Below are positions 48,858 to 63,693 of a stretch of DNA of 64,000 nucleotides, in pieces (position 1 is the stretch's first letter; each line of letters begins with the position of its first letter). Under the pieces are notes generated by a model that worked only from the letters and a program-made list of their open reading frames with translations, was not told where the DNA came from and did no database searches. The translations under genes were made by a program, and so were the position numbers. The DNA is from Mesorhizobium sp. BR1-1-16 (GTDB taxonomy: Bacteria > Pseudomonadota > Alphaproteobacteria > Rhizobiales > Kaistiaceae): contig NZ_JAIUIE010000010.1 of NCBI RefSeq assembly GCF_020165495.1, positions 62,001-126,000 of the forward strand. Reading direction: 5' to 3'.

Positions 48858-49493
48858 TCACCCCGAGGCCGCCTTTGCCGCGCGGCCGGAAGCGATCTGG
48901 GCGCGAAGCTCCGATCCATCCGCAAGGCTCGCCGGCGACAGCATCCAGGACCCGCCGGCCGCCACGACATTGGCCAGCGCGAGATAGGAAGGCAGCGAGG
49001 CCGCATCGATCTTGCCGGTCGGCACGAAGCCGATATCGGGAAAGATGTTGGCGTAGTCGGCAAGCACCATGGCCCCGTTGGAGGCCTGTGCCGGATAGAA
49101 CTTCATCAGGCTATAGCCGTAATGCACGGCGGTCATCACTTCCGATGCCGTCTGGATGCCGGGGATATGCGGCAGGCCTGTCGGCCGCACGAGATCGACC
49201 AGCCAGGGCGTGAGTCCCGGGCTCACCAGGAAATCGGCCCGTGCCGCAACGGCCTCAGTGACGGCCTCGGCGGTCATGATCGTGCCGGCGCCGAAGAGGG
49301 TCGCGGGATGACGCGCCTTCGCGGCCGCAAGCGCGCCGGCCGCTTCAGACGTGCGAAACACCACCTCGATGGCGGCGATACCGCAGGCAACCAGCCGATC
49401 GATCTGCTGCATCGTTGTTTCGACGGCGCGCACCGTCAGGATCGGCAGGATCGGCGCATCAGCGAGCCGGCCGCGCAATTCGGATGGGGTCAT
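48858..49493 (-). CDS. 2-dehydro-3-deoxy-6-phosphogluconate (KDPG)-type aldolase
   Basis: Class I aldolase of about 211 residues. The Schiff-base Lys is in SLMKFYPAQ, the general acid/base Glu in IAAIEVVFRTSEA, and the phosphate-binding part in FVPTGKIDAA. KDPG and KDPGal aldolases split the 2-keto-3-deoxy-6-phospho sugar acid to pyruvate and glyceraldehyde 3-phosphate. The ATG at 49493 overlaps the kinase stop by 4 bp. It is the last gene of a seven-gene operon running from the binding protein at 55984. Confidence 0.9.
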   Translation of the reverse strand: MTPSELRGRLADAPILPILTVRAVETTMQQIDRLVACGIAAIEVVFRTSEAAGALAAAKARHPATLFGAGTIMTAEAVTEAVAARADFLVSPGLTPWLVDLVRPTGLPHIPGIQTASEVMTAVHYGYSLMKFYPAQASNGAMVLADYANIFPDIGFVPTGKIDAASLPSYLALANVVAAGGSWMLSPASLADGSELRAQIASGRAAKAASG

Positions 49494-50425
49494 GATCGGG
49501 TCTCCATCGTGGCGAGGACGGCCTCGACTTCCGCGCGCTCCGGCGTCCCCATGCGGCCACCGAATGTCCGGCATTTCAGCGCCGCGGCGACATTGGCAAA
49601 GGCGATCGCATCCGGGATCGTCGCCTTCTCGGCGATGGCAAGCGCAAAGGCGCCATGGAAGACATCGCCTGCCGCGAGCGTGTCGACGGCGATCACCTCA
49701 GGCGGAGCCAAGTGTCGGATGGCGCCGGTCGCGCGCTCCAGCCAGAAGCAGCCGTCAGGACCGGCGGTCACGGCGAGGAAGCCGGAAAGGCGCGGCGCCA
49801 GGGCCTCCAACGCAGCGCGGGGATCGGTCTCGCCGGAAAGGAGCGTCGCCGCAGGTTCCGAGAAGACGACATGGGTCGCGCGCGCGGCGAGGTCTTCGAT
49901 AATCTCGGCCGGGCCGACATCGGCATCGAGAATCGCCGGAATTCCTGCCGCGCGCGCGGCATCCAGCACAGCCGCTGCGCCTTCGGGCCAGCGCACATCG
50001 GCCAGTGCAGCATCGGCCTCAGTGACTAGGTCAAGCGGCAGCCAGGCGGGGTCCTTGCCGAGGCGCGGATCATAGAACGGAATGACGAGCCGCTCGCCGT
50101 CGGCATCGATCAACACGGTGCAGATCGGGGAGCGCACGCCATCGACGCGGCGGATATGGCTGCAGTCGACGCCAGCCTCCCTCAGGTCGGCGATGATCCG
50201 GGCGCCCACGCCGTCGTTTCCGACCCGGGAAAAGAGCGTGCTGGCCCCGCCGAGCTTCGCGATCGCCGCCGCGGCGCTCGCGGCCATGCCATGCGCAACC
50301 TCGATCGCATCGAGCGGCAGGACCTTGCCGTGTCCGGTCGGCAGGCGGGCCATGCGGAATATGGAATCAAACGTTGCCGCGCCGATGCAGACGACGCGCG
50401 GCCGCGCCTCGGTTGGCCCTGTCAT
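49490..50425 (-). CDS. PfkB-family carbohydrate kinase (probable 2-keto-3-deoxy sugar acid kinase)
   Basis: Ribokinase/PfkB-family kinase of 311 residues. The catalytic anion-hole motif is DTLAAGDVFHG (catalytic Asp near residue 257), with Ala in place of the usual first Gly. The substrate lid begins GAATFDSIFRMARLPTGHGK. Next to a KDPG-type aldolase and an SMP-30 lactonase, 2-keto-3-deoxygluconate or its epimer is the probable substrate, but ketohexoses are also phosphorylated by this group. Confidence 0.85.
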   Translation of the reverse strand: MTGPTEARPRVVCIGAATFDSIFRMARLPTGHGKVLPLDAIEVAHGMAASAAAAIAKLGGASTLFSRVGNDGVGARIIADLREAGVDCSHIRRVDGVRSPICTVLIDADGERLVIPFYDPRLGKDPAWLPLDLVTEADAALADVRWPEGAAAVLDAARAAGIPAILDADVGPAEIIEDLAARATHVVFSEPAATLLSGETDPRAALEALAPRLSGFLAVTAGPDGCFWLERATGAIRHLAPPEVIAVDTLAAGDVFHGAFALAIAEKATIPDAIAFANVAAALKCRTFGGRMGTPERAEVEAVLATMETRS

Positions 50426-50455: not shown

Positions 50456-51334
50456 TCAGCCCTCGAAGGGGACTTCGGGCAGGCCCTTCACGCCGACATC
50501 GATCGCGAAGAGACCGCCGGCGAGCGCCGCACCGTTGATTTTCTCCGGCGGTCGCTTGAGCACGGCGGAGGTGCAGTAGAGGACATCGAGGTCGTCGCCG
50601 CCGAAACCGACACAGGTCGGCAGGTCGGTCGGCAGCATGATCGTGCGCATCAGTCTGCCGTCTGGATCGTAGCGGCAGATCTTGCTGGTCACGGGGATCG
50701 TCGCCCAGTAGCAGCCCTCGACATCAACAGTCGCCCCATCGACGATGCCGCCAGTATCCGCAACATCGGTGAACACACGCCGGTTCTCGACATTGCCCGT
50801 CGCGGGATCGAAATCGAACGCCCAGACGATCGTCGTGTGGCTGTCGGAATAATACATCGTGCGGCTGTCGGGGCTCCAGGCGAGGCCATTGGAGCAGCCG
50901 ACGCCTTCGACCATCTTGTGCACCGAGAGGTCTGCGTCCATCCGGTAGAGCGAGCCGATCATGCGCGCCGGTCCCGCGGCCTCGAACATCGAACCGGACC
51001 AGAAACGGCCCTGGCGGTCGGTCTTGCCGTCGTTGAAGCGCGTGTCCGGAATATGCGCTTCCGGATCGACGATCGGATCATAGCGGCCGGTTTCAGGATC
51101 GAAGAAGTAGAAGCCGCTCGCCATCGTGACGATGAGGCCGCCGCTGCGGCGCGTCGCCAGGCAGCCGAGATATTCCGGCGCCTCGTAGATGCGATCCTCG
51201 CCCGTTTTCGGATCGAAGCGATGGATGTTGGGCGCCCAGATATCGATCCACCAGAGCACCTTCTCCCCCGTGTCCCAGAACGTGCCCTCGCCGAGAATGG
51301 CCTTGGCGTCGACCACGCATTCGATGTCGGTCAT
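50456..51334 (-). CDS. SMP-30/gluconolactonase family lactonase
   Basis: Six-bladed beta-propeller hydrolase of 292 residues. Metal ligands of the family are visible as Glu in LGEGTFWD, Asn in DTRFNDGKTDRQGRFW, Asn in GCSNGLAWSPD and Asp in TGGIVDGATVD. It should open a sugar 1,5- or 1,4-lactone to the aldonic acid. The gene lies 10 bp after the second permease gene and 30 bp before the kinase gene, within the operon, and fits an oxidative route: sugar, lactone, acid, 2-keto-3-deoxy acid. Confidence 0.9.
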   Translation of the reverse strand: MTDIECVVDAKAILGEGTFWDTGEKVLWWIDIWAPNIHRFDPKTGEDRIYEAPEYLGCLATRRSGGLIVTMASGFYFFDPETGRYDPIVDPEAHIPDTRFNDGKTDRQGRFWSGSMFEAAGPARMIGSLYRMDADLSVHKMVEGVGCSNGLAWSPDSRTMYYSDSHTTIVWAFDFDPATGNVENRRVFTDVADTGGIVDGATVDVEGCYWATIPVTSKICRYDPDGRLMRTIMLPTDLPTCVGFGGDDLDVLYCTSAVLKRPPEKINGAALAGGLFAIDVGVKGLPEVPFEG

Positions 51335-51344
51335 GGCGTCCCTT

Positions 51345-52334
51345 TTATGATTGAGCGTTGTCCCGGCGACCGAAGGATCGCGTCATCACGGCGAAGAAAT
51401 CCGATACGGCGTCGCTTGCGAGCGACACCGTCACCAGGATGACAACGCCATAGACGACGAGCAGCGCGCCATTGGAGAGGTTGAGCGCCGGCAGGAGGCC
51501 GGTGAGGATCGTGAGCACCAGAGCGCCGGCAATCGTGCCGATATAGCTGCCGCTGCCGCCGAGGATCGAGGCGCCGCCGATCGCGACCGCCGCGATGGAG
51601 GTGAAGAGATAGGGATCGCCCATCCCGAGATAGGCCTGCGCGGTATAGCCCGTGAGAAGGATGCCGGCCGCCGCGGCGGTGAAGCCGGACAGCGTGTAGG
51701 CGAGAACCGTGATGCGCAGCGTCGGGACGCCGGAGAATTCGGCAACGGTTGCGCTGGTGCCCTGCGCATAGAGATAGCGGCCGAAGGCGGTTCGAGAGAG
51801 CAGCAGCGTCGCGGCGACGGCGAGCGCCGCCCAGATCAGCACCACGACGGGGAGGGGCCCAATCCGCCCGACCGCGAGGAACTGGATCAACGGCGGTGCC
51901 GAGGCGGTGGGCGCGCCGCCCGTATAGATCAGGATGCCGCCCTGCAGGATGACGTTGACGGCGAGCGTCATGATGATCGGCGGCACGCCGAACAGCGCGA
52001 TGCCGAACCCGTTCAGCGCGCCGACCAGCGCGCCGCCGGCAAGCGCGATCGGAATCGCATAGATGAGCGGCCCATCGGCGCCATTTGCCATCAGCGTCAC
52101 CAGCACCGCGGCGCAGTTCAGCACCCAGGGCACCGAAAGGTCGATGCCGCCGCCGATGATGACGAAGGTCTGGCCGAGCGCGACGATGCCGATGAAGGCG
52201 GAGAGCACCGCCATCGTCCTGAGATGGCTGCCGGAGAGGAAGCCCTGCGACACGAAGGAGGTGAGCAGAAGCAGGACGATCATGCCGAGATAGGCGAGCA
52301 AGACGGCCCGGTGGCGGGCGAGGAGGGCGTTCAT
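51345..52334 (-). CDS. CUT2-type ABC permease, second of pair
   Basis: Permease of about 329 residues (VLLAYLGMIVLLLLTSFVSQ; FVIIGGGIDLSVPWVLN). The GGIDLSV motif marks the family. The ATG at 52334 overlaps the stop of the other permease gene by 4 bp. Two different permeases make a heteromeric membrane channel, as in AraH-like YtfT/YjfF systems, rather than the homodimer of RbsC. Confidence 0.92.
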   Translation of the reverse strand: MNALLARHRAVLLAYLGMIVLLLLTSFVSQGFLSGSHLRTMAVLSAFIGIVALGQTFVIIGGGIDLSVPWVLNCAAVLVTLMANGADGPLIYAIPIALAGGALVGALNGFGIALFGVPPIIMTLAVNVILQGGILIYTGGAPTASAPPLIQFLAVGRIGPLPVVVLIWAALAVAATLLLSRTAFGRYLYAQGTSATVAEFSGVPTLRITVLAYTLSGFTAAAAGILLTGYTAQAYLGMGDPYLFTSIAAVAIGGASILGGSGSYIGTIAGALVLTILTGLLPALNLSNGALLVVYGVVILVTVSLASDAVSDFFAVMTRSFGRRDNAQS

Positions 52335-53347
52335 GACAGGCTCCTCCGCGCGGATTTCTCGGCAAGCGAACTGGCCAGCACTGCGATGAGCAGGATCACG
52401 CCTGAGACGACAGGCTGCCAGTAGCTCGAGACCGAGAGAACGAAGACGAGATTGCCGATGATCGTCAGGATGAAGGCGCCGACGATGGTTCCGATCATGC
52501 CGCCACGACCGCCGAACAGGCTGATGCCGCCGATCACCGCCGCCGCTACCGAGGGCAGGATGTAGTCCTTGCCGATGGTGGGCGAGCCAGTTCCGGTCTG
52601 GGTCGTCAGATAAAGCGCCGCCAGCGCCGCGAAGAGGCCCGAAAGCCCGTAGGTCAGGAGGTTGATGCGAAGGATCGAGACGCCCGACAATTCGGCCGAG
52701 CGTTGATTGGAGCCGGTGGCGCGGATCTCGATGCCGAGGCGCGTGCCGCGGAACCACACCCAGAAGAGGATCAGGAGCACGAGCAGCCCCACCGAGGACG
52801 AGACGCCCAGCAACGAGGCGTTACCGAACGCCATCCAGAAGTCCGGCAACTGGCCGCCATCGGTCGGCAGGATCATCAGCGCGGTGCCGGACAGGATCGA
52901 CCAGGTGGCGAGCGTGACGAGAAAAGGCTGCAGCCGCAGCACGGAGATCAGAAGACCGTTGCAGACGCCGATCGCGAACCCGAGCAGCGCGATCATCAAT
53001 GCGGCGAACGCGACCTGCAGCGGGCTGCCGCCGAACTGGGTGGCAGCGAGGACGGTTCCAAGGCTGATCATGCCGCCGATCGACAGGTCGATGCCGCCGC
53101 GCAGCAGCACGATCGTCTGTCCTGTTGCGGCGAGCAGCAGCGTCATTGCGGCCGCCGTGTCGAGGTTGAGTTCCTCGAAGGTGAAGACGCCTTCGCGCAG
53201 CGTGCCATAGATGGCGACGAGCACCGCCAGCATTCCGCAGGCAATGAGGAACGGCGCGCGGTCGATCAGCCAGGTCGAACGGTCGCGCGCGGCGTCGCCG
53301 TCGCGCTTGGCCACGGACTTGGCCGGGGAGGGAAGCGTCATCGTCAT
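52331..53347 (-). CDS. CUT2-type ABC permease, first of pair
   Basis: Permease of 338 residues (FLIACGMLAVLVAIYGTL; TIVLLRGGIDLSIGGMISLG). It overlaps the ATPase gene upstream and the second permease gene downstream by 4 bp each. The pair, the ATPase and the binding protein at 54923 form a full YtfQRT-YjfF-like importer, a type associated with furanose sugars such as galactofuranose. Confidence 0.92.
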   Translation of the reverse strand: MTMTLPSPAKSVAKRDGDAARDRSTWLIDRAPFLIACGMLAVLVAIYGTLREGVFTFEELNLDTAAAMTLLLAATGQTIVLLRGGIDLSIGGMISLGTVLAATQFGGSPLQVAFAALMIALLGFAIGVCNGLLISVLRLQPFLVTLATWSILSGTALMILPTDGGQLPDFWMAFGNASLLGVSSSVGLLVLLILFWVWFRGTRLGIEIRATGSNQRSAELSGVSILRINLLTYGLSGLFAALAALYLTTQTGTGSPTIGKDYILPSVAAAVIGGISLFGGRGGMIGTIVGAFILTIIGNLVFVLSVSSYWQPVVSGVILLIAVLASSLAEKSARRSLS

Positions 53348-54846
53348 GCCGCGCGCGCCTCGACCATCGCTTCGCGGAGAATGCGGTGCTCGGAAATGTC
53401 ATCGCCCGAAAGGATCGCGGCGAGCTTGCCGTTACGCAGCACGGCGACCCGGTCCGCGACATTCACGATTTCCGGCAGGTCACTGGAATAGAACAGGATC
53501 GCATACCCCTTCGCCGCCAGGTCCCGCATCAGGCGGAAGATCTCGCCTTTGGTTCCGACGTCGATGCCGCGCGTCGGATCGTAAAGCAGAAGGATTCGCG
53601 ATTGGGTGAGAAGCATCTTGCCGAAGATGACCTTCTGCTGGTTGCCGCCGGAAAGCGTTCCGGCCAGTTGGTCTGGCGTTCCCGCCTTGATCTGCAGCGT
53701 GCGCAGCTGTTCATCGACCAGCGCGCGCTCGCGGCTGCGGCTGAGGAAGCCGAACCGGGTGAATCGCGGCACGACCGACAAGGTTAGGTTCTCGCGAACG
53801 CTCTTCGAAAGGAGCAGCCCATGGCTGCGCCGGTCCTCCGGGACCAGCGCGATGCCGTCGCGACCGACAAGAGCATCGCGCGGGCTGCGGATCGCGACGG
53901 GCTTGCCCCAGACCTCGATCGCGCCGCGCGACCGGCTGACCCCGAAAAGCGCCTGGAAGAGTTCGCGCTGCCCGTGTCCCTGCAGGCCTGCGACGCCCAT
54001 GACCTCGCCTTCCTTGAGGTCCAGGTCGATATCGGCGAGGCGGTCTCCGACCGACAGCCCGCGCAGCTTGAGGGCGGTGCGGTCGGTCGCGGTCGCGATG
54101 CGCGGCGGATAGAGGCGGTCCATGCGCCGGCCCAGCATGTCGGCGATGATCGTTTCGTCGTCAACGGCTGCGGTGTCGTGGGTCGCGACCGTGGCGCCGT
54201 TGCGGAAGATGGTGACGCGCTGCGCGATCTGCCGGATCTCGGCAAGGCGATGCGAGATATAGATGACGAGCTTGCCTTCGGCTGCGAGGTCTTGCGAAAG
54301 CTGCAGCAGCCATTCGGTCTCCCGGGGCGGCAGCGCGGAGGTCGCCTCATCGAGGATGATCACCGATGGATCGCGCGAGAGGGCCTTGGCGATCTCGACG
54401 ATCTGTCGCTCGGCCAGCGTCAGCCGCCGCACCTCGCGCGTCGGAGCCGGGGCGGGAATCCGGTAGCGGTCAAACAGAGCAAGGGTGGCCTCGCGTTCCC
54501 GGCGCTTGCGGACCGTGCCGATCGGCGAGAGCGGCTCGCGGCGGAACCAGATGTTCTCGGCGACGGTGAGGTCCGGGACGAGCGACAGTTCCTGGAAGAC
54601 GGCCGCTATGCCGGCGGCCTCGGCGGCGCGGGCATTGGCTGGTTGATAGGCCCGGCCTGCAAGATGGAGCGTGCCGCCATTTGGCCTGATGATGCCGGCG
54701 AGAATCTGGATGAACGTGCTTTTGCCGGCGCCGTTCTCGCCGAGAAGCGCATGCACCTCGCCGGCATCGGCGCGAAAGTCGGCTCGCGACAGCGCGACGA
54801 TGCCGCCATAGCGCTTGCTGATCCCGACAGCCTCGATCAGTTCCAT
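53344..54846 (-). CDS. CUT2-type ABC ATPase, two nucleotide-binding domains
   Basis: Double ATPase of 500 residues. N-terminal Walker A GENGAGKST, signature region LTLAERQIVEIAKAL, Walker B VIILDEATSAL; C-terminal LSGGNQQKVIFGKML and ILLLYDPTRGIDV, where the usual Asp-Glu is Tyr-Asp. That loss of the C-terminal catalytic Glu leaves only the first site with a full Walker B and is common in this family. It overlaps the first permease gene by 4 bp. Confidence 0.92.
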   Translation of the reverse strand: MELIEAVGISKRYGGIVALSRADFRADAGEVHALLGENGAGKSTFIQILAGIIRPNGGTLHLAGRAYQPANARAAEAAGIAAVFQELSLVPDLTVAENIWFRREPLSPIGTVRKRREREATLALFDRYRIPAPAPTREVRRLTLAERQIVEIAKALSRDPSVIILDEATSALPPRETEWLLQLSQDLAAEGKLVIYISHRLAEIRQIAQRVTIFRNGATVATHDTAAVDDETIIADMLGRRMDRLYPPRIATATDRTALKLRGLSVGDRLADIDLDLKEGEVMGVAGLQGHGQRELFQALFGVSRSRGAIEVWGKPVAIRSPRDALVGRDGIALVPEDRRSHGLLLSKSVRENLTLSVVPRFTRFGFLSRSRERALVDEQLRTLQIKAGTPDQLAGTLSGGNQQKVIFGKMLLTQSRILLLYDPTRGIDVGTKGEIFRLMRDLAAKGYAILFYSSDLPEIVNVADRVAVLRNGKLAAILSGDDISEHRILREAMVEARAA

Positions 54847-54922: not shown

Positions 54923-55984
54923 TCAGGAGCCGGAGGCTTCGGCAGCCGTGATCGTCACCCAGTCGGGCGTGATCGGCAGCGTCAATCCGGGCGGGGCATC
55001 GGGGAAGGCGTTCTTGCCGATCTCGATGACCTGCGTCACCGCGTCGGGATAGAGCTCCGACTTGAACGGGGCGGTCGCCAGGAAGTCGCCATTCACCAGC
55101 ACGTGGCGTTCGGCCGGCTTCTTGCCGGTGTCGAGGATGTCCACGGCGAGCTTGATCGCCTCCGACGACAGATAGGCCGGGTTGGAGCCGAGGATGCACT
55201 TGGCGCCTTCAGTCTTGGCGCAGGCCAGCGCAGAGGAGTTGTAGGTGAAGCCGACGACCGGGACGATCGTCCGACCCGCATCCTGCAACGCCTTGATGGC
55301 GCCCGAGCCGTAGCCCTGCGTCAGGATCCCGTCGACTTGCGGATGGGCGGCGAGCAGGCTCGCGACGCCGGCCTGTTCCGGCCCGAGCGCGTATTCGCCG
55401 TTGTAGCTGCCGACGACTTCGATGCCGGGATATTTCTTCAGGACGTCGAGATAGCCCTTCTCGAGCGCGGCCGAGATCGGCGCGCCGGCCAGGCCGCGGT
55501 CGACGAAGACCTTGCCCTTGCCGCCAAGCTGCTGTGCCATCCATTCAGCCATCACGGCAGGGATGCGCTTCCAGTCGGATTCGAGCGCATAGGCGCAGGG
55601 TTCGGTCACGACCTGGTCGAAGCTGATCACGACGATGCCCGCATCGCAGGCCTTCTTGATCGTCGGGTTCAACGCGGTATCCGAGCCGGCGTCGATAAGG
55701 ATCGCGTCCGGCTTGGAGCGGATGATGTTGTTCAGCGAGTTGATCTGCGCCTGGACCGTGTTCTCGACATTTTCAATCTTGAGGTCCACGCGGCCTTCGA
55801 GCGGCCCTTTGCTGACGGAGACGTTGGCGACGCGCTCCATCTGCTGGCGCCAGTCATTGCCGACGAAGTTGTTCGACAGATAGATCTTGTACTTCTTGGC
55901 CTCGGCCTCGGCATGGCCGGCGATACCGGCCATCAGGCCGATCGCGGTCGCAGCGAGCGCGACTGTATGCGCAATTTGTCTCAA
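54923..55984 (-). CDS. CUT2-type ABC sugar-binding protein
   Basis: Binding protein of about 353 residues. The signal peptide is QIAHTVALAATAIGLMAGIA and the mature protein begins AEAKKYKIYLSNNFVGNDWR. The start is a TTG at 55984, six bases behind GGGAGG; the ATG at 56110 would add about 40 non-conserved residues and span a promoter motif. The gene heads a seven-gene minus-strand operon (binding protein, ATPase, two permeases, lactonase, kinase, aldolase). Two copies of a TTATNATAG motif lie 73-140 bp upstream. Confidence 0.87.
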   Translation of the reverse strand: MRQIAHTVALAATAIGLMAGIAGHAEAEAKKYKIYLSNNFVGNDWRQQMERVANVSVSKGPLEGRVDLKIENVENTVQAQINSLNNIIRSKPDAILIDAGSDTALNPTIKKACDAGIVVISFDQVVTEPCAYALESDWKRIPAVMAEWMAQQLGGKGKVFVDRGLAGAPISAALEKGYLDVLKKYPGIEVVGSYNGEYALGPEQAGVASLLAAHPQVDGILTQGYGSGAIKALQDAGRTIVPVVGFTYNSSALACAKTEGAKCILGSNPAYLSSEAIKLAVDILDTGKKPAERHVLVNGDFLATAPFKSELYPDAVTQVIEIGKNAFPDAPPGLTLPITPDWVTITAAEASGS

Positions 55985-56056
55985 GGTCGTCCCTCCCAGA
56001 ATTGGACACGTTTCCTCGGATGCATGGTCCGGCGGTATGTTCCACCGTTGTGGTAA

Positions 56057-56124
56057 CGTTATCATAGTGACTGTCTGGCTGCGCACTGGCAAGCCGTCGG
56101 TCATATTCATATGCTATTATAATC
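56057..56124. promoter_or_regulatory. Motif pair upstream of the binding-protein gene
   Basis: CGTTATCATAGTGA (56057-56070, plus strand) and GATTATAATAGCAT (minus strand, 56124-56111) share TTATNATAG. The second is identical over 14 bases to a site at 61266-61279. They are good candidates for the UTRA-type GntR regulator encoded next door and may include a -10 (TATAAT). Confidence 0.5.
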
Positions 56125-56174
56125 GTATATGCCTGTCCAGCGAGGCCGGCGGCTCCCGCGGTGGTCTGAAGCCT

Positions 56175-57029
56175 TCAGACGATGTCGTTCGGAGCATCGA
56201 AAATCAGGCTGAAATAGTCGGCCCGGTTCTTGTTGATCGTCAGTTCGACCGGCTCGCCATCCGCCGAGCGATAGACCATTTCCGTGACGAGGATCGGATC
56301 GCCGGCCTTGCAGTCGAGGCTGCGGGCGAGGGGGGCATCGGCGAGTTCGGCACGAACGCTGACGCGGGCGCCGGAGAGCTTGATGCCGAGATGACGCTGC
56401 ACCGAGCGAAACACCACCACATCGTCGAAATCGGAGCGGCGAAGGCGACTGCCGATGGCTACCGGAAAGTAGAATGTGCACTGGCAGGCAGGCTGGTCGC
56501 CGACGAAGAGTACGGCGCGGAGGCAATAGAGGCTTTCGTCCTCCGGAAGGCCGAAGACGGCACTCGCCTGCACCGACTTCTCCTTCCTGTAGCTACGGAT
56601 CTCGATCCGGCGGTCCTTGGTCGATTCGGCGATGGCCGCGAGGCTGGAAAAGCCGAAGCTCGCCTTCGAGCGCGGCGTCTGCGCAATCACGACCGCGGGC
56701 TTTGCCGCGCGCTTCTTGATATAGCCCTCATTCTCAAGCTCGCGCAGCGCCTGGCGCACGGTGATGAGGCTGATGCCGAAGCGCTCGGCGATGTCTGCCT
56801 CGCGGGGCAGGGCACTTCCGGCAACGAGCTGGCCGCCGCGAATGGGTTCGCGCAGCAGGTCGGTCACCTGCCGGTAGAGTGGGCCGTCGTCGCGCGAGAG
56901 GATACGGGCCGGCAGCAGGGTCAACGCCGTACCGTCCATATCCGCCAGGTCGCTGCTCGCCGCCGTTTCGCGTTCCATTCCTTCAGCCTCTTTCCGGGCG
57001 ATGTCTTCACCTCGATCGCAGCGCTCCAC
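56175..57029 (-). CDS. HutC/UTRA-type GntR-family transcriptional regulator
   Basis: Regulator of up to 284 residues. Winged HTH at about 45-115 (ALPREADIAERFGISLITVRQALRELENEGYI), then the UTRA effector domain (about 130-280; ESLYCLRAVLFVGDQPACQC, DPILVTEMVYRSADGEPVEL). ATG at 57029 or 56978 may be the start. UTRA regulators sense small sugars, amino sugars or acids. It lies between the minus-strand importer operon and a divergent SDR gene. Four copies of a TTATNATAG-like motif in the surrounding promoter regions make it the likely controller of the whole segment from 49 to 63 kb. Confidence 0.9.
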   Translation of the reverse strand: MERCDRGEDIARKEAEGMERETAASSDLADMDGTALTLLPARILSRDDGPLYRQVTDLLREPIRGGQLVAGSALPREADIAERFGISLITVRQALRELENEGYIKKRAAKPAVVIAQTPRSKASFGFSSLAAIAESTKDRRIEIRSYRKEKSVQASAVFGLPEDESLYCLRAVLFVGDQPACQCTFYFPVAIGSRLRRSDFDDVVVFRSVQRHLGIKLSGARVSVRAELADAPLARSLDCKAGDPILVTEMVYRSADGEPVELTINKNRADYFSLIFDAPNDIV

Positions 57030-57179: not shown

Positions 57180-57959
57180 ATGCAGACCGATCTTTCGGAC
57201 AAAGTCGCGTTCGTCACCGGCGCGGCCAACGGCATCGGCAGCGCTATCGCTCGTCGGCTGGCCGATAACGGTGCCGCGCTGGTGATCGCCGATATCGACA
57301 TCGCCAATGCCGAGCGCATCGCGGCCACCTTGCCCCGCGCCATCGCCTGCCATGTCGATATCCGCGACGAGGCCGCCATTGACAGGGCGGTCGACCGCGC
57401 GGTGGAGCGGTTCGGGCAGATCGACATCCTCGTCAACAATGCCGGCGTGAACACATTCGCGCACCGTGTTGATATCGACGCCTTTCCGACTGAGGAATGG
57501 CACCGGATCATCTCGGTTGACCTCGACGGCCTCTTTCTCGTTTCGCGCAGCGCGCTCAGGCCGATGCTGGCGCGCGGCGAGGGCGGAGCGATCGTCAACA
57601 TCGCATCGGTCGTCGGTCTCGCCGCGATGCGGCTGCAGAGTCCATTCGTCGCCGCCAAGGCCGGGATTATTCACCTGACCCGCTCGATGGCGCTGGAACT
57701 CGGCGCCAAGGGCATCAGGACGAATGCGGTCGCGCCCGGGTCGATCATGACCGACGGGACGAAGAAGCTCTTCTACGGCGAAAACGGCCAATTCCACGCC
57801 CGCACTCAGGCGTTCATGGATCATATTCCGCTCGGGCGGCCGGGAACGCTTGATGAAATCGCCGAGGCGGTGCTGTTCCTGGCGGCGCCGGAAAGCCGCT
57901 ACGTCAACGGCCACATCATGACCGTCGATGGCGGCTGGACGGCTGGCTACATGATGTGA
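57180..57959 (+). CDS. Short-chain dehydrogenase/reductase (probable sugar or sugar-acid dehydrogenase)
   Basis: Classical SDR of 259 residues. Cofactor motif TGAANGIGS, acid residue in VIADIDIAN indicating NAD preference, NNAG in DILVNNAGVN; the active-site region reads QSPFVAAKAG, so the usual Tyr of YxxxK is replaced by Phe although the Lys remains. Ends NGHIMTVDGGWTAGYMM. The ATG follows GGGAGGATTC. It is a candidate sugar 1-dehydrogenase feeding the SMP-30 lactonase, but the Tyr-to-Phe change makes its activity open. Confidence 0.88.
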   Translation: MQTDLSDKVAFVTGAANGIGSAIARRLADNGAALVIADIDIANAERIAATLPRAIACHVDIRDEAAIDRAVDRAVERFGQIDILVNNAGVNTFAHRVDIDAFPTEEWHRIISVDLDGLFLVSRSALRPMLARGEGGAIVNIASVVGLAAMRLQSPFVAAKAGIIHLTRSMALELGAKGIRTNAVAPGSIMTDGTKKLFYGENGQFHARTQAFMDHIPLGRPGTLDEIAEAVLFLAAPESRYVNGHIMTVDGGWTAGYMM

Positions 57960-58001: not shown

Positions 58002-58751
58002 CTAGACGAGGAGCCGGAGCGGCACCGCGAGACAATCGCGAAGCGCGGCGAGGAACTGTGCCGCCGCGGCATCCGTGATCTCTGCCTCGTCGAACACGAT
58101 CAGCGCCTCGGCTATATCCGCTTCCGCAACGGCGAGCGTCAGGCGGATCGGCACGTTTGGATCGAGCGCTGCGGTCACGGGCCGGAGCCCATCCTGGCGA
58201 ATGCGCGACACGATGATGGAGGCGCCCCGCGCCGCATCCGTCTCGGTGCCGGATCGGAGCGCGGCGATGCGTGAGGGCGCCAGCCCGTCGGCGCGTGGGA
58301 TGATCGCTTGGACGGCTGCCGCCTTGTCCCGCCAGTCGATCGTTTCGACCGGCAGGTCGGCAACCCGCAGCGCGCGGCCGATCGCTTTCAGCACGAGATC
58401 GTCGATCGTCACATCCGGCGCCACATCGACGATCGTCGGCAGGAGCGCGCGCAGCAGCGAGAGGTCAAGGCCGGTCGCAAAGCCGGAGATCGACCGCTGG
58501 GGCGCGGCTTCCTTCATCGGCGCAGGTGACACCTGAGCCAGTTCGGCCTGTGAAACGACGGGAGGTGCCGCGGCTGGCGGCTCGGCCGGCGCGGCAACGG
58601 CAGCCGGAAGCACCATCGCCGCGAGGTCGGCGGCGACGATCCGGCCGTTCGGGCCGGAGCCGCGGCGGCCGGCAAGGGAGATGCCGCGCTCACGTGCGAG
58701 CCGGCGTGCATAGGGGGAGGCGGCGATCCGCTCAAAGGCTTGTGCTGACAT
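58002..58751 (-). CDS. E2-like protein (2-oxoacid dehydrogenase), without lipoyl domain and without catalytic His motif
   Basis: Protein of 249 residues. Residues about 8-45 are a clear peripheral-subunit-binding domain (SPYARRLARERGISL, GSGPNGRIVAADL). A Pro/Ala linker follows, then about 160 residues with the order of an acyltransferase core, ending IVFDEAEITDAAAAQFLAALRD. In active E2 proteins this place reads FDHRVxDGxxxAxFL, so the catalytic His and the DG are missing, and the core is short. No lipoyl domain is present; one is fused to the E1 protein encoded 9 bp upstream. It may be a scaffold binding E1 and E3 rather than a transferase. Confidence 0.8.
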   Translation of the reverse strand: MSAQAFERIAASPYARRLARERGISLAGRRGSGPNGRIVAADLAAMVLPAAVAAPAEPPAAAPPVVSQAELAQVSPAPMKEAAPQRSISGFATGLDLSLLRALLPTIVDVAPDVTIDDLVLKAIGRALRVADLPVETIDWRDKAAAVQAIIPRADGLAPSRIAALRSGTETDAARGASIIVSRIRQDGLRPVTAALDPNVPIRLTLAVAEADIAEALIVFDEAEITDAAAAQFLAALRDCLAVPLRLLV

Positions 58752-58760
58752 CGGCGCCGC

Positions 58761-61202
58761 TCACTTTCCGCCGATCACGGAGCCGATGCGGCCGCCCATC
58801 GGCACAACCGCGCCGACATCCTGCTCGATCGGACCAAGCGTGCCGGCGACCGGCGCCTCGATCTCGACGACGGCCTTGTCCGTCTCGATCTCCGCGACCA
58901 GATCGCCGGCCTGGACCGGATCACCCGCCGCCTTGAGCCAGCGGACGATCGTGCCCTCGCTGATCGTGAGATCGCCGAACGGCATGGTGATCGCCTCACC
59001 TTCGCCGATCACAGCCTGCACCACCGCTTTCGGCGCCTCCGGCGCAGCCTTGACGGGATCGGCCACGGCCGGAGCACTGGCGTTCGCTGCTGCGGGCTGT
59101 CCGCCGATCGAATACCAGCGGCGCGGCAGGAGCGGACGACCCGCGATGACGCCCTCGGCCGCTGCGACGATGCGCTCGGCATCGACGATCATCGCCCGTT
59201 CGAGCGTGGGTGCGAGCGGATGCGACATCGCCTCGGTGTGGACGCGGCCGACCGGAGCATCGAGATCGTCGAAGGCGAGTTCGTTGATCGCCTGCGCGAT
59301 CTCGCCGCCGACGCCGAACGGGCCGTAGCCCTCGTCCGCGACCAGAAGGCGATGCGTGCGTGCCACCGAAGCGGCGATGGTGTCGACGTCGAGCGGCATG
59401 ATCGTCCTGAGGTCGATGACCTCGGCCTCGATGCCGCGCGCGGCGAGCTTCTCGGCCGCCTCGAGCGCGCGATGCACGATCTGCCCGGCCGCGGCGATCG
59501 TGATGTCGCGGCCGGGGCGGGCGATCCTCGCAACGCCGAACGGCACCAGATGCTCGCCGGTCGGCACTTCGCCCTTCGAGGCGAACAGCGCCTTCGGCTC
59601 GAGCATGATGACCGGATCGCCGGCCCTGAGCGCCGTCTTCATCAGGCCCTTGGCGTCGGCGGGCGTTGCCGGCATGCAGACGATGAGCCCCGGAATATGG
59701 GCCCAAACAGGATGATAGGTGCCGCTGTGATGCGGGCCGGCGCTGCGCACCGTGCCGGCACCCACGCGGACCACGAAGGGCGCGTTCATCTGGCCGTTTG
59801 ACATGTAGCGCAGCTTCGAGCCCTGCAGCACGATCTGGCCGGCCGCCTCGAACATGAAATCGGCGAACATCAGGTCGGCAATGGCGCGCGCGCCGGTCGC
59901 CGCGGCCCCGATCGCTGCGCCGGTGAAGCCTTGTTCCGAGATCGGGGTATCGATCATCCGCTCCGGCCCGAACTCGGTCCAGAGGCCCTTGGTATGCGCG
60001 AAGGTTCCGCCGCGCTCGCCCGTACCCTCGCCGAAATAGATGAGGTTCGGATCACGCCGCATCTCTTCGGCGATCCCGTCGCGAACCGCATCGAGCCAGC
60101 TCTGCGTCCGGGTCGCGGCGGGCGCCGCCTGCACCAGCGCATCGGCGGGATTGATCGGGTCGGCATAGATGTGGAGGCCGACCGTCGCCGGATCGGGCTC
60201 GGGCGAATTGCGCGCGAATTCGAGCGCGTGCTGCACGATGGCATCGATCCGCGCATCGATCGCGTCGAGCTCGTCGTCGGCCACAAGGGCAAAGTCCTCG
60301 AGGAGGCGCCGGCGGTAGAGCTTGATCGGATCGCGCGCCAGCCATTCATCGACTTCGGCCTGCGTGCGATAGGTGCCGGTGACGTGGTCGCCTTCGTGAT
60401 GTCCGACGGTGCGATAGGTCTTGGCCTCGAAGAGGGTCGGACCCTTGCCCGAGCGGGCCCGCGCGACGGCTGCGCCCGCCGCTTCATAGACCGCGATGAC
60501 ATCGTTGCCATCGACCGCGACGCCCGGAATGCCGTAGGCGGCAGCTTTCGAGGCGATCTCGGGGTTCAGTGTCGCCGTGGCGAGCGGCGTCGCCGTCGCA
60601 TAGAGATTGTTCTCGCAGACAAGCAACGCCGGAGCGCGCATGATCCCGGCAAAATTCAGCGACTCGTGGAAACCGCCATGGTTCGTCGCGCCGTCCCCGA
60701 AAAACGCGACGCCGATATCATCAGTGCCGCGCGTGCGCGCGCTAATGCCGGCGCCGACTGCATGGCTGATGCCGGCGGCGACGATGCCGTTGGTGCCGAA
60801 CAGGCCGATCGAGCGGTCATAGAGATGCATCGTACCGCCGCGCCCCCCACAGCAGCCATCGACGCGGCCATAGAGTTCCGCCATCAAAATGTCGGGGGAC
60901 ATGCCCTTGGCCAGCGCATGACCGTGGCCGCGATGCGTCGAGGTCACCCAGTCGGACCGGCGCAGATGCGCGCAGATGCCGACCGCGGTGGCCTCCTGCC
61001 CGATATAGAGGTGGAAGAAACCGGGCGTTTCGCCCTTTCGGCAGGCCATTTGCGCGACGGTTTCGAACTTCCGCAGCAGGACCATGCTCTCATAGAGCTC
61101 GATCATCGCGTCGGCAGTCAGCCCGGCGGGAAGGTTGTGCGTTTTCTGCTCGGAGCCCGCTCTGCGGGACCCTGCGGAAGGACGGGAAACCTGGACGCTC
61201 AT
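58761..61202 (-). CDS. Fused 2-oxoacid dehydrogenase E1alpha-E1beta-lipoyl protein
   Basis: Single polypeptide of about 813 residues. Residues about 30-345 are a thiamine-diphosphate E1alpha domain (GGRGGTMHLYDRS, FFGDGATNHGGFHESLN, CENNLYATATP); about 355-690 are E1beta (LIYFGEGTGERGGTF, GAAATGARAIADLMFADF, LLVADEGYGPFGVGGEI); the C terminus is a lipoyl domain with Lys776 in IETDKAVVEIE. It resembles acetoin/branched-chain-type complexes. The ATG at 61202 follows GAGGGAGAAGGC. With the E2-like gene 9 bp downstream it should decarboxylate a 2-oxo acid or split a diketone. No E3 gene is in the window. Confidence 0.9.
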   Translation of the reverse strand: MSVQVSRPSAGSRRAGSEQKTHNLPAGLTADAMIELYESMVLLRKFETVAQMACRKGETPGFFHLYIGQEATAVGICAHLRRSDWVTSTHRGHGHALAKGMSPDILMAELYGRVDGCCGGRGGTMHLYDRSIGLFGTNGIVAAGISHAVGAGISARTRGTDDIGVAFFGDGATNHGGFHESLNFAGIMRAPALLVCENNLYATATPLATATLNPEIASKAAAYGIPGVAVDGNDVIAVYEAAGAAVARARSGKGPTLFEAKTYRTVGHHEGDHVTGTYRTQAEVDEWLARDPIKLYRRRLLEDFALVADDELDAIDARIDAIVQHALEFARNSPEPDPATVGLHIYADPINPADALVQAAPAATRTQSWLDAVRDGIAEEMRRDPNLIYFGEGTGERGGTFAHTKGLWTEFGPERMIDTPISEQGFTGAAIGAAATGARAIADLMFADFMFEAAGQIVLQGSKLRYMSNGQMNAPFVVRVGAGTVRSAGPHHSGTYHPVWAHIPGLIVCMPATPADAKGLMKTALRAGDPVIMLEPKALFASKGEVPTGEHLVPFGVARIARPGRDITIAAAGQIVHRALEAAEKLAARGIEAEVIDLRTIMPLDVDTIAASVARTHRLLVADEGYGPFGVGGEIAQAINELAFDDLDAPVGRVHTEAMSHPLAPTLERAMIVDAERIVAAAEGVIAGRPLLPRRWYSIGGQPAAANASAPAVADPVKAAPEAPKAVVQAVIGEGEAITMPFGDLTISEGTIVRWLKAAGDPVQAGDLVAEIETDKAVVEIEAPVAGTLGPIEQDVGAVVPMGGRIGSVIGGK

Positions 61203-61265
61203 GCCTTCTCCCTCTGTGCCGTCCGTGCCAACCTGCTGAAGCAAGACGACCAAACGAGCATCTAT

Positions 61266-61279
61266 GATTATAATAGCAT
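61266..61279. promoter_or_regulatory. Fourth copy of the TTAT-type motif
   Basis: GATTATAATAGCAT in the 133-bp divergent region between the E1 fusion gene and the SDR-like gene, identical over 14 bases to the minus-strand site at 56124-56111. The exact match 5 kb apart in front of different operons argues for a shared regulator. Confidence 0.55.
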
Positions 61280-61335: not shown

Positions 61336-61947
61336 ATGAGAGTGGAGCTCGACGGGCGCTTGGCGCTGGTCGTGGGCCGGGACGGGCCTGTCGTCGACCA
61401 GGTTGTGGCGGCTCTGGCTGAGAATGGCGCCGCAGTCTCGCGCCGTCAGCCGGTCGAAGCCTCGACCCAAAACGCAACGACACCTCCGGATCTCGCGGTG
61501 ATCGCACATGACCTGTCGCCTGATGGCACGGCTGAGGACATCGAGTGGCTGATTGACGCTGCCGAGACCATCGGCGAGGCCATGGCAGAGCGGGGCGGAC
61601 GGCTCATCGTGCTGACGACCTCGTTCGGGCTTCTGCCGTCACGCCGGCATGCCGCGCAGTCGGTCGCTACGGCCCGGACGGTCGCGGCGATGCGGACGCT
61701 GGCGATGCGGCTCGGCCCGACGGTTCTCGTCAATGCAGTCGGCGCCGGTGCGATCTCGGATGGAAGTGGCAGCTTTGTCGCCGGCGGGCAGGCGCTGCTC
61801 AGCCATGTGCCGACCGGCAGCGCGGGCACGATCGCCGATCTTGTAAATGCCGTGCTTTTCCTCGCAGATCCGATGAACACTTATCTGACCGGTCAGGTGC
61901 TGGCGGTCGATGGCGGTTGGGGAGCGGGCTATGGCCGCAACTTCTGA
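61336..61947 (+). CDS. Degenerate SDR-fold protein
   Basis: Short protein of 203 residues that aligns in outline with SDRs but lacks their key motifs. The cofactor turn is VGRDGPVV instead of TGxxxGIG; no NNAG is present; the YxxxK region reads SRRHAAQSVA. The C-terminal part is typical (VLFLADPMNTYLTGQVLAVDGGWGAGYG) and matches the ending of the SDR at 57180. It is therefore probably catalytically inactive or has a new role, for example as a partner subunit. ATG at 61336 follows GGGAGGAATGC. It overlaps the epimerase-like gene by 17 bp. Confidence 0.8.
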   Translation: MRVELDGRLALVVGRDGPVVDQVVAALAENGAAVSRRQPVEASTQNATTPPDLAVIAHDLSPDGTAEDIEWLIDAAETIGEAMAERGGRLIVLTTSFGLLPSRRHAAQSVATARTVAAMRTLAMRLGPTVLVNAVGAGAISDGSGSFVAGGQALLSHVPTGSAGTIADLVNAVLFLADPMNTYLTGQVLAVDGGWGAGYGRNF

Positions 61948-62833
61948 GAGCTTGAGGCGCGTGCAACTCAGCGCAGGCGATCTCGTGCTGACGCTCGTGC
62001 CGGAACTCGGCGGCAGCATCGCGGCCTTCACAAAGGGAGGCGTCGATATCATGCGGCCCCTCTCCGCGAAGGCCGAGGAGGAGCGGAATGTCCTCGGCGT
62101 CGCCAGCTTCCCGATGATCCCCTATGCGAACCGCATCGACGGCAACGGCTTCACCTTTGAGGGCGTCACCTACGCGCTTTTACCGAACAACCCGCCCGAA
62201 CGCTTCAACGTGCATGGCAATGCCTGGCTTAGCGCCTGGGTCGTCGCGGCGGCAGACACGAGATCCGCCACCCTGACGCTCGACCGGCGGATCGCCGGCG
62301 AGCCTTATCTCTACCGGGCGACGCAGCGTTTCGATCTGACGCCGGAGGGGCTGACGCTCGATACCGTCGTGGAGAATGTCGGTCCACGGCCGATGCCGTT
62401 TGGCTTCGGCCATCATCCCTGGTTCGAGCGCGACGCTGACGCCACGCTGCGCTTTACAGCCTCGCATGTGTGGGAATCCGGACCCGATGGCACCTCCGGC
62501 GCGCGGATTGCGGTGCCGCCGGAACTCGACTTCAGCGCTGGGCCCGTGCTGCCGCCAGCGCTTCGGAACAACTGCTATTCAGGCTGGAATGGGGTCGCCG
62601 AGATCGCCTTTCCGGCCCGCGGGCTGACGCTTCGGATGGAAGCGGACCCCATCCTCGGCAAGATCATGACCTATGCCGATCCGCAGAAGCCGTTCTTCTG
62701 CGCCGAGCCGCAGAGCAATGTCCCCTGTGCCGCCAACAAGCTGGAGCATGGCGAGGAGGATCTCGGCATCGTCGTGCTGGCGCCGGGCGAGTCCATGAGC
62801 GGCTCTGTTCGCTTCATCGTCACGGATGGCTGA
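61931..62833 (+). CDS. Aldose 1-epimerase (galactose mutarotase-like) family protein
   Basis: Beta-sandwich mutarotase-like protein of 300 residues. Family segments are PMIPYANRIDGNGFTFEG, FNVHGNAWLSAW with the conserved His, and FGFGHHPWFERDADATL with the second His; a late Glu in CAEPQSNVP fits the catalytic base. It should interconvert sugar anomers, supplying the form used by a sugar 1-dehydrogenase. The ATG at 61931 follows GGAGCGGGCT and lies within the end of the SDR-like gene, so both are coupled. Confidence 0.9.
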   Translation: MAATSESLRRVQLSAGDLVLTLVPELGGSIAAFTKGGVDIMRPLSAKAEEERNVLGVASFPMIPYANRIDGNGFTFEGVTYALLPNNPPERFNVHGNAWLSAWVVAAADTRSATLTLDRRIAGEPYLYRATQRFDLTPEGLTLDTVVENVGPRPMPFGFGHHPWFERDADATLRFTASHVWESGPDGTSGARIAVPPELDFSAGPVLPPALRNNCYSGWNGVAEIAFPARGLTLRMEADPILGKIMTYADPQKPFFCAEPQSNVPCAANKLEHGEEDLGIVVLAPGESMSGSVRFIVTDG

Positions 62834-62901: not shown

Positions 62902-63693
62902 CTACAAGAGCCTTGCCGTCATGCCGCCGTCGATCACGAAGCCGCTGCCCGTGACGAAGGACGCCGCGTCCGACAAGAGGAACGCGATGCCGGTCGCAAT
63001 CTCGCGCGGGTCGGCGATACGGGCGATCCGGTCGGTGGCGAATGAGAGCCCGGCGGCCTCGGCACCGCCCGCCTCGTCGAGGCCGTCCAGCGTCATGCGC
63101 GTCGCCACCGAGCCGACGATCAGCGCGTTCACGCGGATGTGGTCGACCGCGTAGTCGAGCGCCATCTGGCGGGAGAGTCCGAGCACCGCCGCCTTTGAGG
63201 CTGCATAGGCCGGCACTCCGGGCACGGTCGCGAGCGCGTGGACGGATGCGATATTGACGATACTGCCGCCGCCAGCGGCACGCAGATGCGGCAGCGTCGC
63301 CCGGCAAACACGAAATATGGCGGTCAGGTTGACGGCGATCGTCCGGTCCCATTCCGCGTCGGAGACGTCCTCGAGCCGCTTGCCGGTCATGTAGATGCCG
63401 GCGGCATTCACCACGCCGTCGAGCCGTCCATAGGCTGACAGGGCTGCTGCCACGGCCGCACGAACCTCGGCATCATCGGTGACATCGGTCTCGCGGAAGA
63501 TGAGGGCTGTGCCCGCCTCGGCATGCTTTCGCCCGAGTTCCGAGCCTTCCTGGCCGTCGAGGCCGATGCCGAACACGCGCGCGCCCTGGGCGACAAGGTG
63601 TTCGGCGGTTGCACGCCCGATGCCCGTGCCGGCGCCGGTCACGAGAATGCTCCGCCCCTCGACCGAAGGCGACCCCGGTACGGTCCAGTTCAC
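62902..63693 (-). CDS. Short-chain dehydrogenase/reductase
   Basis: Classical SDR of 263 residues with all motifs intact: TGAGTGIGR, NAAG in GVVNAAGIY, Ser in VNIASVHAL and YAASK. The C terminus is TGSGFVIDGGMTARLL. The start is GTG at 63693, overlapping the stop of the ABC ATPase gene by 4 bp (GTGA), so it belongs to an importer operon entering from the right edge. A sugar or polyol dehydrogenase is the natural reading. Confidence 0.92.
   Translation of the reverse strand: MNWTVPGSPSVEGRSILVTGAGTGIGRATAEHLVAQGARVFGIGLDGQEGSELGRKHAEAGTALIFRETDVTDDAEVRAAVAAALSAYGRLDGVVNAAGIYMTGKRLEDVSDAEWDRTIAVNLTAIFRVCRATLPHLRAAGGGSIVNIASVHALATVPGVPAYAASKAAVLGLSRQMALDYAVDHIRVNALIVGSVATRMTLDGLDEAGGAEAAGLSFATDRIARIADPREIATGIAFLLSDAASFVTGSGFVIDGGMTARLL

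Follow-up and report, generated by a model that had tools for sequence, protein, structure and literature searches.

How does a 2-oxoacid dehydrogenase pass on its product if the swinging lipoyl arm is borne by its E1 component and the E2-like protein encoded next to it lacks the catalytic histidine? This question is raised by two adjoining genes in the 64,000-nucleotide stretch of DNA that we analyzed as a whole (the window).

An E1 fusion carrying its own lipoyl domain

The larger of the two genes (58761..61202, minus strand) encodes a protein of 813 residues in which Pfam recognizes E1_dh, Transket_pyr, Transketolase_C and Biotin_lipoyl domains, with the TPP motif GDG-x26-NN starting at residue 169. 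An Ala/Pro-rich linker (58998-59135) leads to the C-terminal lipoyl domain (58776..58997, minus strand; PF00364, 54 bits), the ETDKA motif of which contains Lys776 (codon 58875-58877). All 14 of the fusions aligned have this lysine, which, as the DKA lysine of a Biotin_lipoyl domain, qualifies the fusion as a lipoyl protein, its lipoylation being predicted. The preliminary description of an E1alpha-E1beta-lipoyl fusion beside a reduced E2, with the arm at Lys776, thus proved exact in coordinates, domains and residue.

The fusion shares 71–88% identity with 13 homologues across genera and stays below the NCBIfam cut-offs for E1 proteins (330/394 bits for TIGR03182, 373/454 for NF008854 and 309/321 for NF006667). 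In an E1 tree built without L094, L107 and the divergent x_L162, the fusions form a clade of their own outside the PDH clade and apart from the acetoin E1s (AcoA/AcoB), with weak support for the deep branching order; L097 and L107 cover no more than the last part of the E1 gene. Judged from these comparisons, the E1 fusion falls outside the PDH type, and its STHRGHGH and GxNGI motifs are common to acetoin-type E1s. The contrast of GxNGIV with GGHGIVG was dropped as a sign of the substrate, human PDH E1alpha also having Asn at that position.

Two known systems come close to this arrangement. The acetoin dehydrogenase complex (AcoA, AcoB, AcoC) resembles it in the E1 motifs, and AcoC, which is likewise without the usual E2 core, supplies the best NCBIfam model for the lipoyl domain of the fusion (60.8 bits). 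It differs in that E1alpha, E1beta and lipoyl domain are here united on one chain, which falls into its own clade, and in that the window genome contains no AcoC (no NF011457 match at 1e-40). Alphaproteobacterial PDH shares the E1 fold and a lipoyl domain on an E1 chain, as in the PDH E1beta of the window genome itself, whereas the fusion lies outside the PDH clade, has its lipoyl domain at the C-terminus and is accompanied by an E2-like protein that is probably not catalytic.

The E2-like protein retains a binding domain and a reduced core

The second gene (58002..58751, minus strand) encodes 249 residues, hereafter the pseudo-E2, with E3_binding (PF02817, 49.5 bits) as the sole Pfam domain. 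This peripheral subunit-binding domain (58623..58724, minus strand) also accounts for most of the best NCBIfam match, the PDH E2 model TIGR01349 (49 bits). Pfam detects no lipoyl domain and, at E 0.1, no 2-oxoacid_dh core (PF00198). The remaining part (58005..58496, minus strand) emerged as a reduced E2-type core from hhalign, an AlphaFold model and Foldseek. Alignment of 47 E2-like proteins with 14 canonical E2s by hhalign (probability 99.5, E 4e-22) placed DHRVVDG over DEAEITD, which stands at 58071-58091 where E2s have DHRxxDG, and the conserved C-terminal end PLRLLV lies inside 58005-58031. The predicted core (pLDDT 88.3) still has an E2-like fold: Foldseek matched it to 6zzn with an E-value of 3.9e-11, and the target TM was 0.48–0.63 in 47 of the 50 matches listed, compared with 0.76–0.92 in 47 of the 50 listed for the intact E2 of locus L104 as a control. 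Alignment and predicted fold together trace the core to an E2-type core. Matched by eye against the control model, it is missing the first core strand and helix, the strands near 171–177, the SNLGM turn, the Gly380 equivalent and most of the long hairpin.

Among the 47 aligned proteins, which represent the 52 loci with an E2-like match minus L044, L052, L063, L072 and L097 and in which the L043 protein was taken from L014, the position of the catalytic histidine is held by Ala (30), Thr (8), Glu (4), Pro (4) or Ser (1) and never by His. The Gly380 equivalent is likewise found in 0/47, and in no column do as many as half of the proteins have His, the richest being position 213 with 19/47. The Asp directly before the missing His, equivalent to Asp374 of E. 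coli E2o, is kept in 46/47. An ordinary E2 with a diverged yet recognizable site is ruled out by Pfam, hhalign and these residue counts. The absence of lipoyl domain and catalytic His, the shortened core and the replacement of FDHRVxDG by FDEAEITD, as read earlier from the window protein, therefore all hold; the structure prediction and homologue survey proposed at that time gave an E2-like fold and no His at the catalytic position in any of the 47 proteins, and a catalytic His elsewhere in the site, named then as one objection, was not found among them.

The preliminary description had further judged that normal E2 acyl transfer appears impossible. From the loss of His alone this is too strong, because Asp is so widely kept and because in E. 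coli E2o, according to the portion of the source cited here, replacements of His375 cost between 2- and 178-fold overall, Trp and Gly only 2- and 5-fold, while the Ala variant keeps 2.1% and the Cys and Asn variants 1.0 and 0.5% of the activity (PMC5986005). The stronger case for lost catalysis is the combined loss of the motif and several core elements, and from sequence and model the core is probably catalytically inactive.

The pairing is conserved across genera

The fusion occurs in 64 distinct loci from Kaistia, Mesorhizobium, Devosia, Bosea, Bauldia, Prosthecomicrobium, Reyranella and MAGs, in 54 of which a degenerate E2 adjoins it. A degenerate E2-like match was obtained in 52 of the 58 loci examined, with the E2-like sequence of L063 and L072 broken across two frames. 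The binding domain is the best-conserved part of the pseudo-E2 (mean commonest-residue fraction 0.80), the core being less conserved. Nevertheless, NG86 dN/dS of the core amounts to 0.10–0.41 in 12 of 12 close pairs, indicative of purifying selection; single values in binding domain and linker, on 17–43 codons, reach 1.00 and 1.49. Since the match recurs in 52/58 loci and the core dN/dS is this low, the sequences confirm the pairing of E1 fusion and pseudo-E2 as conserved across the family and not a product of chance or sequencing error; plain decay is unlikely on the same grounds.

No E2-like gene adjoins the E1 gene in L083, L090, L095, L105 and L137. The whole assemblies of these five yielded weak E2-like matches of 22–55 bits, mostly to the binding domain and some at contig ends, and by this reading of five assemblies retention of an E2-like gene beside the E1 fusion appears not to be universal.

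A conserved operator-like site in a sugar-type gene cluster

An operator-like site, CTATTATAATCATAGAT (61260..61276, minus strand), lies between the E1 fusion and a divergent SDR-like gene, and a second copy with 2 mismatches (56114..56130, plus strand) precedes an ABC substrate-binding gene, where 0.02 matches would be expected in the window. In 52 of the 56 loci that could be assessed, its 13-mer occurs with at most one mismatch no farther than 300 nt from the called E1 start; as a conserved sequence, the site marks the fusion cluster. A GntR/UTRA regulator (56175..57029, minus strand; PF00392, PF07702) possibly reads it (ATGCTATTATAAT).

The surrounding genes are of sugar type, as the preliminary description had held, and support the placement of the fusion in a sugar-type regulon of soil alphaproteobacteria. 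On the minus strand these are a KDPG/KHG-type aldolase (48858..49574; PF01081), a PfkB family sugar kinase (49490..50425; PF00294), an SMP-30/gluconolactonase family protein (50456..51334; PF08450, 286 bits), an ABC permease (52331..53347; named by eye, same family across loci) followed by a second permease frame (51345-52757), a sugar ABC transporter ATPase (53344..54846; AraG/XylG/RbsA-type NCBIfam models best, below their cut-offs) and the substrate-binding protein (54923..56110; PF13407, 178 bits; start probably internal). Convergent with the pseudo-E2 gene runs that of a 259-residue SDR with Phe at the catalytic Tyr position (57180..57959, plus strand). On the other side, the divergent gene (61336..61947, plus strand) encodes a 203-residue SDR-like pseudo-subunit that covers only the C-terminal part of PF13561 and, by pattern match, has neither the Gly-rich motif nor YxxxK; it is followed by an aldose 1-epimerase family protein (61910..62833, plus strand; PF01263, 104 bits) and an SDR dehydrogenase (62902..63693, minus strand; PF13561/PF00106). 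The SDR residue checks are simple patterns on 24 of 25 SDRs, and the sorting is rough.

An SMP-30 family gene is present in the fetched stretch of 34 of the 49 loci of at least 15 kb, a family count with Pfam applied to the window member. The non-Kaistia loci looked at have a 2-hydroxyacid dehydrogenase near the E1 gene, Ldh_2 in L095, a D-2-hydroxyacid dehydrogenase in L104 and others assigned by eye. Among the cluster families scanned no CoA-using enzyme was recognized, which fits either an acetyl product or a reaction without CoA, and the transporter and regulator families do not fix the substrate.

A PDH-type E2 fills the slot of the pseudo-E2 in one genus

Of the two PF00198 E2s encoded in the window genome, one is with PDH and the other is taken as OGDH type; the genome also has two E3 genes above the cut-off, one beside each E2, and none of these lies in the fusion cluster. 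In a single genus (L104 and L135, both nested inside the fusion clade) a PDH-type E2 without lipoyl domain occupies the slot of the pseudo-E2. That of L104 (genome G668) is intact and has DHRVVDG. In G573 the slot E2 is 86–87% identical over 196 residues to the genome's own lipoyl-bearing PDH E2, so the fusion system appears to have accepted a PDH E2 core; contig ends truncate the sequences of both L135 and the G573 PDH E2. The L104 slot E2 is 82–83% identical to the G573 operon copy versus 77–79% to the G573 PDH E2, and in G668 (89% complete) the operon copy is the only PDH-type E2 seen. From these comparisons the slot E2 probably arose by recruitment, on one or more occasions. A succession from an ancestral intact E2 to degeneration and loss was dropped, given the nested position of L104/L135 and the closeness of the G573 copy to its own PDH E2. 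The objection that homologues might be ordinary E2s thus applies, by sequence, to this one genus.

A proposed borrowed acyltransferase and its alternatives

Because the partner of the E1 fusion has probably lost its acyl-transfer active site, the product would have to take another route, and its most likely exit is the ordinary pyruvate dehydrogenase core of the cell. The earlier interpretation, which had left the choice between an acceptor other than CoA, hydrolysis and a borrowed E2, is partly supported, the last of these now being the best reading: we see an about even chance that an E3BP-like pseudo-E2 docks components while acyl transfer to CoA is borrowed from the housekeeping PDH E2. 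The complex would be a dehydrogenase that depends on thiamine diphosphate and lipoate and serves a single pathway for a sugar or sugar acid. The E1 fusion, of which the domains and the invariant lysine are observed, would cleave the substrate and load the acyl group onto its own tethered arm; the subunit-binding domain of the pseudo-E2 would hold E3 and/or E1 in the manner of an E3-binding protein, and its reduced core, the C-terminal end of which is kept, would join an E2-type assembly. Transfer to CoA would then occur in trans on the housekeeping core, and reoxidation of the arm would fall to one of the two housekeeping E3s.

This proposal draws on the motif loss without His in 47 members, the predicted E2-like fold, the purifying selection on the core, the two E2s and two E3s that the window genome encodes outside the cluster, the PDH-type E2 in the slot of one genus and the five E1s without adjoining E2-like gene. 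By analogy it also has precedents. In the portion of the source cited here, E3BP is an E2 paralogue without catalytic activity that serves to recruit E3; it has a reduced core in fungi and, it is argued, is found broadly among eukaryotes (PMC10156792). Like E3BP (protein X) of eukaryotic PDH complexes, the pseudo-E2 appears to be an E2 paralogue with an inactive core and a kept subunit-binding domain; held against the E3BP criteria of that portion, it has the binding domain and an E2-type core and lacks the lipoyl domain. Unlike E3BP, it is bacterial and encoded beside a lipoyl-bearing E1 instead of a catalytic E2. In Corynebacterium glutamicum a single E2-E3 has two E1s associated with it, the second E1 of this PDH-ODH hybrid using the E2-E3 of PDH, as far as the cited part of the source describes it (PMC7568260). 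No pseudo-E2 is involved there. The hybrid has its lipoyl domain on the shared E2.

Several points count against a borrowed E2. The operon copy is the only PDH-type E2 seen in G668, no CoA-using enzyme was recognized in the scanned cluster families, the L104/L135 E2 could be a local innovation that is silent on other loci, a PDH E2 serving everywhere would leave the pseudo-E2 in need of another reason for its retention, and the Asp kept in nearly all members could reflect residual chemistry. The last point underlies an unlikely alternative, namely that the E2-like protein has remained an acyltransferase whose rebuilt site uses this Asp, with CoA or another compound as acceptor. Purifying selection and the part of the activity retained by E2o after replacement of His375 (PMC5986005, in the portion cited) are consistent with it, but several core elements are gone by eye against the control model, the core is less conserved than the binding domain and five E1 genes have no E2-like gene adjoining. 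These five loci, the split frames in L063 and L072 and the isolated pairs in which the short binding domain or the linker has a dN/dS near 1 might also suggest a decaying gene in a dehydrogenase out of use; with core dN/dS well below 1 in all 12 pairs, E1 identity of 71–88% across genera and a kept operator, we consider this very improbable.

The main rival is release without CoA, a possibility that we rate as less likely. The acyl group of a 2-oxo sugar acid or ketose would leave the lipoyl arm as a lactone, through its own 4- or 5-hydroxyl, or by water, and the clustered SMP-30 lactonase would open the lactone; E2 chemistry would have become needless and decayed, the pseudo-E2 holding only E3. 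The frequency of SMP-30 genes, the 2-hydroxyacid dehydrogenases of the non-Kaistia loci, the lack of a recognized CoA enzyme among the scanned families and the five loci without adjoining E2 agree with such a route, and self-lactonization of hydroxyacyl thioesters is general chemistry. However, SMP-30 proteins are common in ordinary oxidative sugar pathways, and the PDH-type E2 in the slot of one genus points to CoA. Rather unlikely is the wider claim that CoA is dispensed with, a hydroxy-acid on the E1-borne arm releasing itself as a lactone or being hydrolyzed, E3 yielding NADH and the former E2 serving as scaffold only.

We know of no earlier 2-oxoacid or acyloin dehydrogenase complex without an acyltransferase step, and a CoA-free system, if true, would be the first. 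A conserved bacterial pseudo-E2 beside a lipoyl-armed E1 would show that in bacteria, too, an E2 can be divided into a scaffold and a catalyst, and a sugar pathway yet to be found may underlie the cluster. The three natural operon states (pseudo-E2, no adjoining E2, PDH-type E2) make the need for an E2 core, with the lipoyl domain on E1, directly testable. Among the matches listed from one open-access collection, titles and abstract openings held no description of the fusion or of a bacterial pseudo-E2.

Further matches

The pseudo-E2 found no match in a plasmid search, in the set of which near records may be absent, and none in a viral fold library at E <= 0.001. A protein search returned at least 13 clear relatives (E <= 1.1e-18) along with many ordinary E2s matched via the binding domain. 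Three weak matches with stops inside were seen in G691, G714 and G768; the protein search also gave, in genome G162, a full-length match with 32% identity (E 2.7e-9).

An E1 fusion of a single clade

The E1 fusion, a chain of 813 aa encoded at 58761–61202 on the reverse strand, consists of E1alpha, E1beta, an Ala/Pro-rich linker and a lipoyl domain with Lys776; the coordinates and residue number given in a preliminary description agree with the window sequence. In a tree of 75 E1 sequences, the E1 fusions form a single clade outside the PDH clade and are placed among E1s that mostly carry a STHRGHGH motif, acetoin E1s included, although the deep order is weakly supported. The NCBIfam PDH models remained below cut-off. 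The motifs [IV]V[AG]AGI[SG]H and SEQGF, whose His and Gln lie near cofactor motifs, are present in 15 of the 21 E1 fusions listed, whereas those of loci L104, L135, L138, L136, L137 and L105 lack this His and possess SELGF instead. This split may reflect a changed substrate or chemistry, and it does not run exactly parallel to the state of the E2, since L083, L090 and L095 belong to the 15. Genome G087 harbors several more E1alpha/E1beta pairs with 33–48% identity to the E1 fusion.

A degenerate E2 accompanies most E1 fusions

Among the matches listed from 397 genomes of the order, at least 13, its own entry excluded, are clear relatives of the E2-like protein (249 aa, 58002–58751, reverse strand) over the full length. 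The E1beta-lipoyl end, used as query in one scan of an 84,980-species collection, yielded 54 loci in Kaistia, Mesorhizobium, Devosia, Bosea, Bauldia, Prosthecomicrobium, Reyranella and MAGs, and a class sample of 385 genomes contributed further ones. With contigs paired up by their lengths, the distinct E1 fusion loci number 64 and comprise the window, these 54, five in genomes G087, G383, G371, G334 and G225, and four from the class sample (G573, G625, G523 and G744); L097 and L107, counted here, hold the end of the E1 gene only. A degenerate E2-like gene is present in 54 of the 64 (52 of the 58 loci of one survey plus G371 and G334). L104 encodes an intact E2, L135 a normal-type E2 whose contig ends before the His motif, five loci (L083, L090, L095, L105, L137) have no E2 adjoining E1, and L094 and L138 reach a contig end that leaves the E2 state without a verdict. 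The remaining locus, L136 (G625), shows a degenerate E2 start with two tandem subunit-binding domains, incomplete at the contig end. In L063 and L072, the E2-like gene is spread over two reading frames, reflecting a frameshift or sequencing error.

Profile comparison aligned the E2-like protein with normal E2 over its whole length (probability 99.5, E 4e-22), with DEAEITD opposite DHRVVDG. Among 47 members, the catalytic His position is occupied by A, T, E, P or S and the Gly of DG is never Gly, while the Asp preceding the His position is retained in 46. Their aligned stretches measure 218–249 aa (median 233), compared to 279–327 aa for 14 normal E2s from the binding domain onward. The AlphaFold model (pLDDT 88.3) predicts an E2-type core (Foldseek E 3.9e-11). 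Comparison by eye with a control model, that of the intact L104 E2, shows that it has no counterpart to the first core strand and helix, strands 171–177, the short helix 215–218 or the SNLGM turn, and only a small part of the long hairpin. The main helices are retained, as are the C-terminal helix and the PLRLLV end. The C-terminal end of the E2 core plays a role in assembly. Target TM-scores, which a smaller core alone reduces, were 0.48–0.63 in 47 of the 50 rows listed (others 0.31, 0.33 and 0.42), versus 0.76–0.92 in 47 of 50 for the L104 control (others 0.46, 0.48 and 0.62). Judging from alignment and models, the motif and several core elements are lost while the fold and C-terminal end remain. 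The binding domain is the best-conserved part (0.80 versus 0.57–0.65 elsewhere), and purifying selection acts on the core. By its sequence, the protein appears to be a pseudoenzyme retained for a purpose.

The preliminary description of a lipoyl-bearing E1 beside a degenerate E2 was borne out as an observation, its interpretation only in part. Its remark that normal acyl transfer appears impossible is not settled by the missing His: in E. coli E2o, replacement of this His by Asn, Cys or Ala retains 0.5–2.1% activity, and Trp and Gly cause only 2- and 5-fold losses (PMC5986005). An active acyltransferase is nevertheless unlikely because of the combined loss of motif and modeled core elements, rather than of the His alone.

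Possible fates of the acyl group

A PDH-type E2 without lipoyl domain takes the slot behind E1 in the genus to which L104 and L135 belong; the E2 of L104 scores 290 bits against PF00198 and contains DHRVVDG. The operon E2 of G573 shares 86–87% identity over 196 residues with the lipoyl-bearing PDH E2 of the same genome, both stretches ending at contig ends, and 49% with the Kaistia PDH E2. Since the L104 E2 is 82–83% identical to the G573 operon copy versus 77–79% to the G573 PDH E2, and no second PDH-type E2 was found in the 89% complete L104 genome (G668), the PDH E2 may have been recruited once or several times. The L104/L135 genus is nested in the E1 tree among loci whose E2 is degenerate or missing (values 92–100 as printed after rerooting), and the simplest reading of these sequences is that it recruited its own PDH E2. 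Such a recruitment would point to an E1 fusion that is compatible with PDH-type acyl transfer to CoA. The main rival is release of the acyl group without CoA, with which the SMP-30 family gene in 34 of 49 long loci and the lack of a recognized CoA enzyme among the cluster families scanned are consistent.

Lineages other than that of L104 and L135 could employ a housekeeping E2 in trans with the pseudo-E2 as adaptor. Two PF00198 E2s (one with PDH, the other taken to be of the OGDH type) are encoded in the genome of the window, as are two E3s that score above cut-off; all of them lie outside the cluster. The proposed adaptor role resembles that of eukaryotic E3-binding protein (E3BP; PMC10156792), and the proposed borrowing resembles Corynebacterium, where one E2-E3 is common to two E1s (PMC7568260). 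We rate the system as a lipoyl-bearing E1 fusion paired with a bacterial pseudo-E2 of the E3BP-like kind.

An operator-like site and the surrounding cluster

Of 56 assessable loci, 52 carry the 13-base site ATGCTATTATAAT, with at most one mismatch, no more than 300 nt from the called E1 start, the exceptions being L100, L102, L104 and L105; 45 of 1021 random stretches of the same loci match, true sites elsewhere included. Further copies stand ahead of the transporter binding-protein gene and of the LacI/second transporter genes, and five loci have an HpaI aldolase that shares the site with E1. In the window's own genome, four matches to a 17-base form (at most two mismatches) lie within 19 kb on contig C2, two of them inside the window (56114–56130 and 61260–61276); the backward control pattern matches once. 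The site is AT-rich and very conserved in several Hyphomicrobiales genera. The regulon seems to continue right of the window at L194:7701–13479, with an aldonate (gluconate/galactonate)-dehydratase-like enzyme, a split transketolase, an SDR, an HpaI-type aldolase and a D-2-hydroxyacid dehydrogenase; a LacI gene also lies to the right. Its gene content suggests a pathway for a sugar or sugar acid.

The SDR adjoining the E2-like gene (57180–57959, forward strand) carries Phe at the catalytic Tyr position of YxxxK, as do 24 of 25 recognizable homologs, the other one not being parsed. An SDR-like protein (61336–61947, forward strand) has neither the Gly-rich NAD motif nor YxxxK; by these motifs it appears to be a second pseudo-subunit of the cluster, perhaps the partner of an active SDR. 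Short proteins similar to it occur in several genera.
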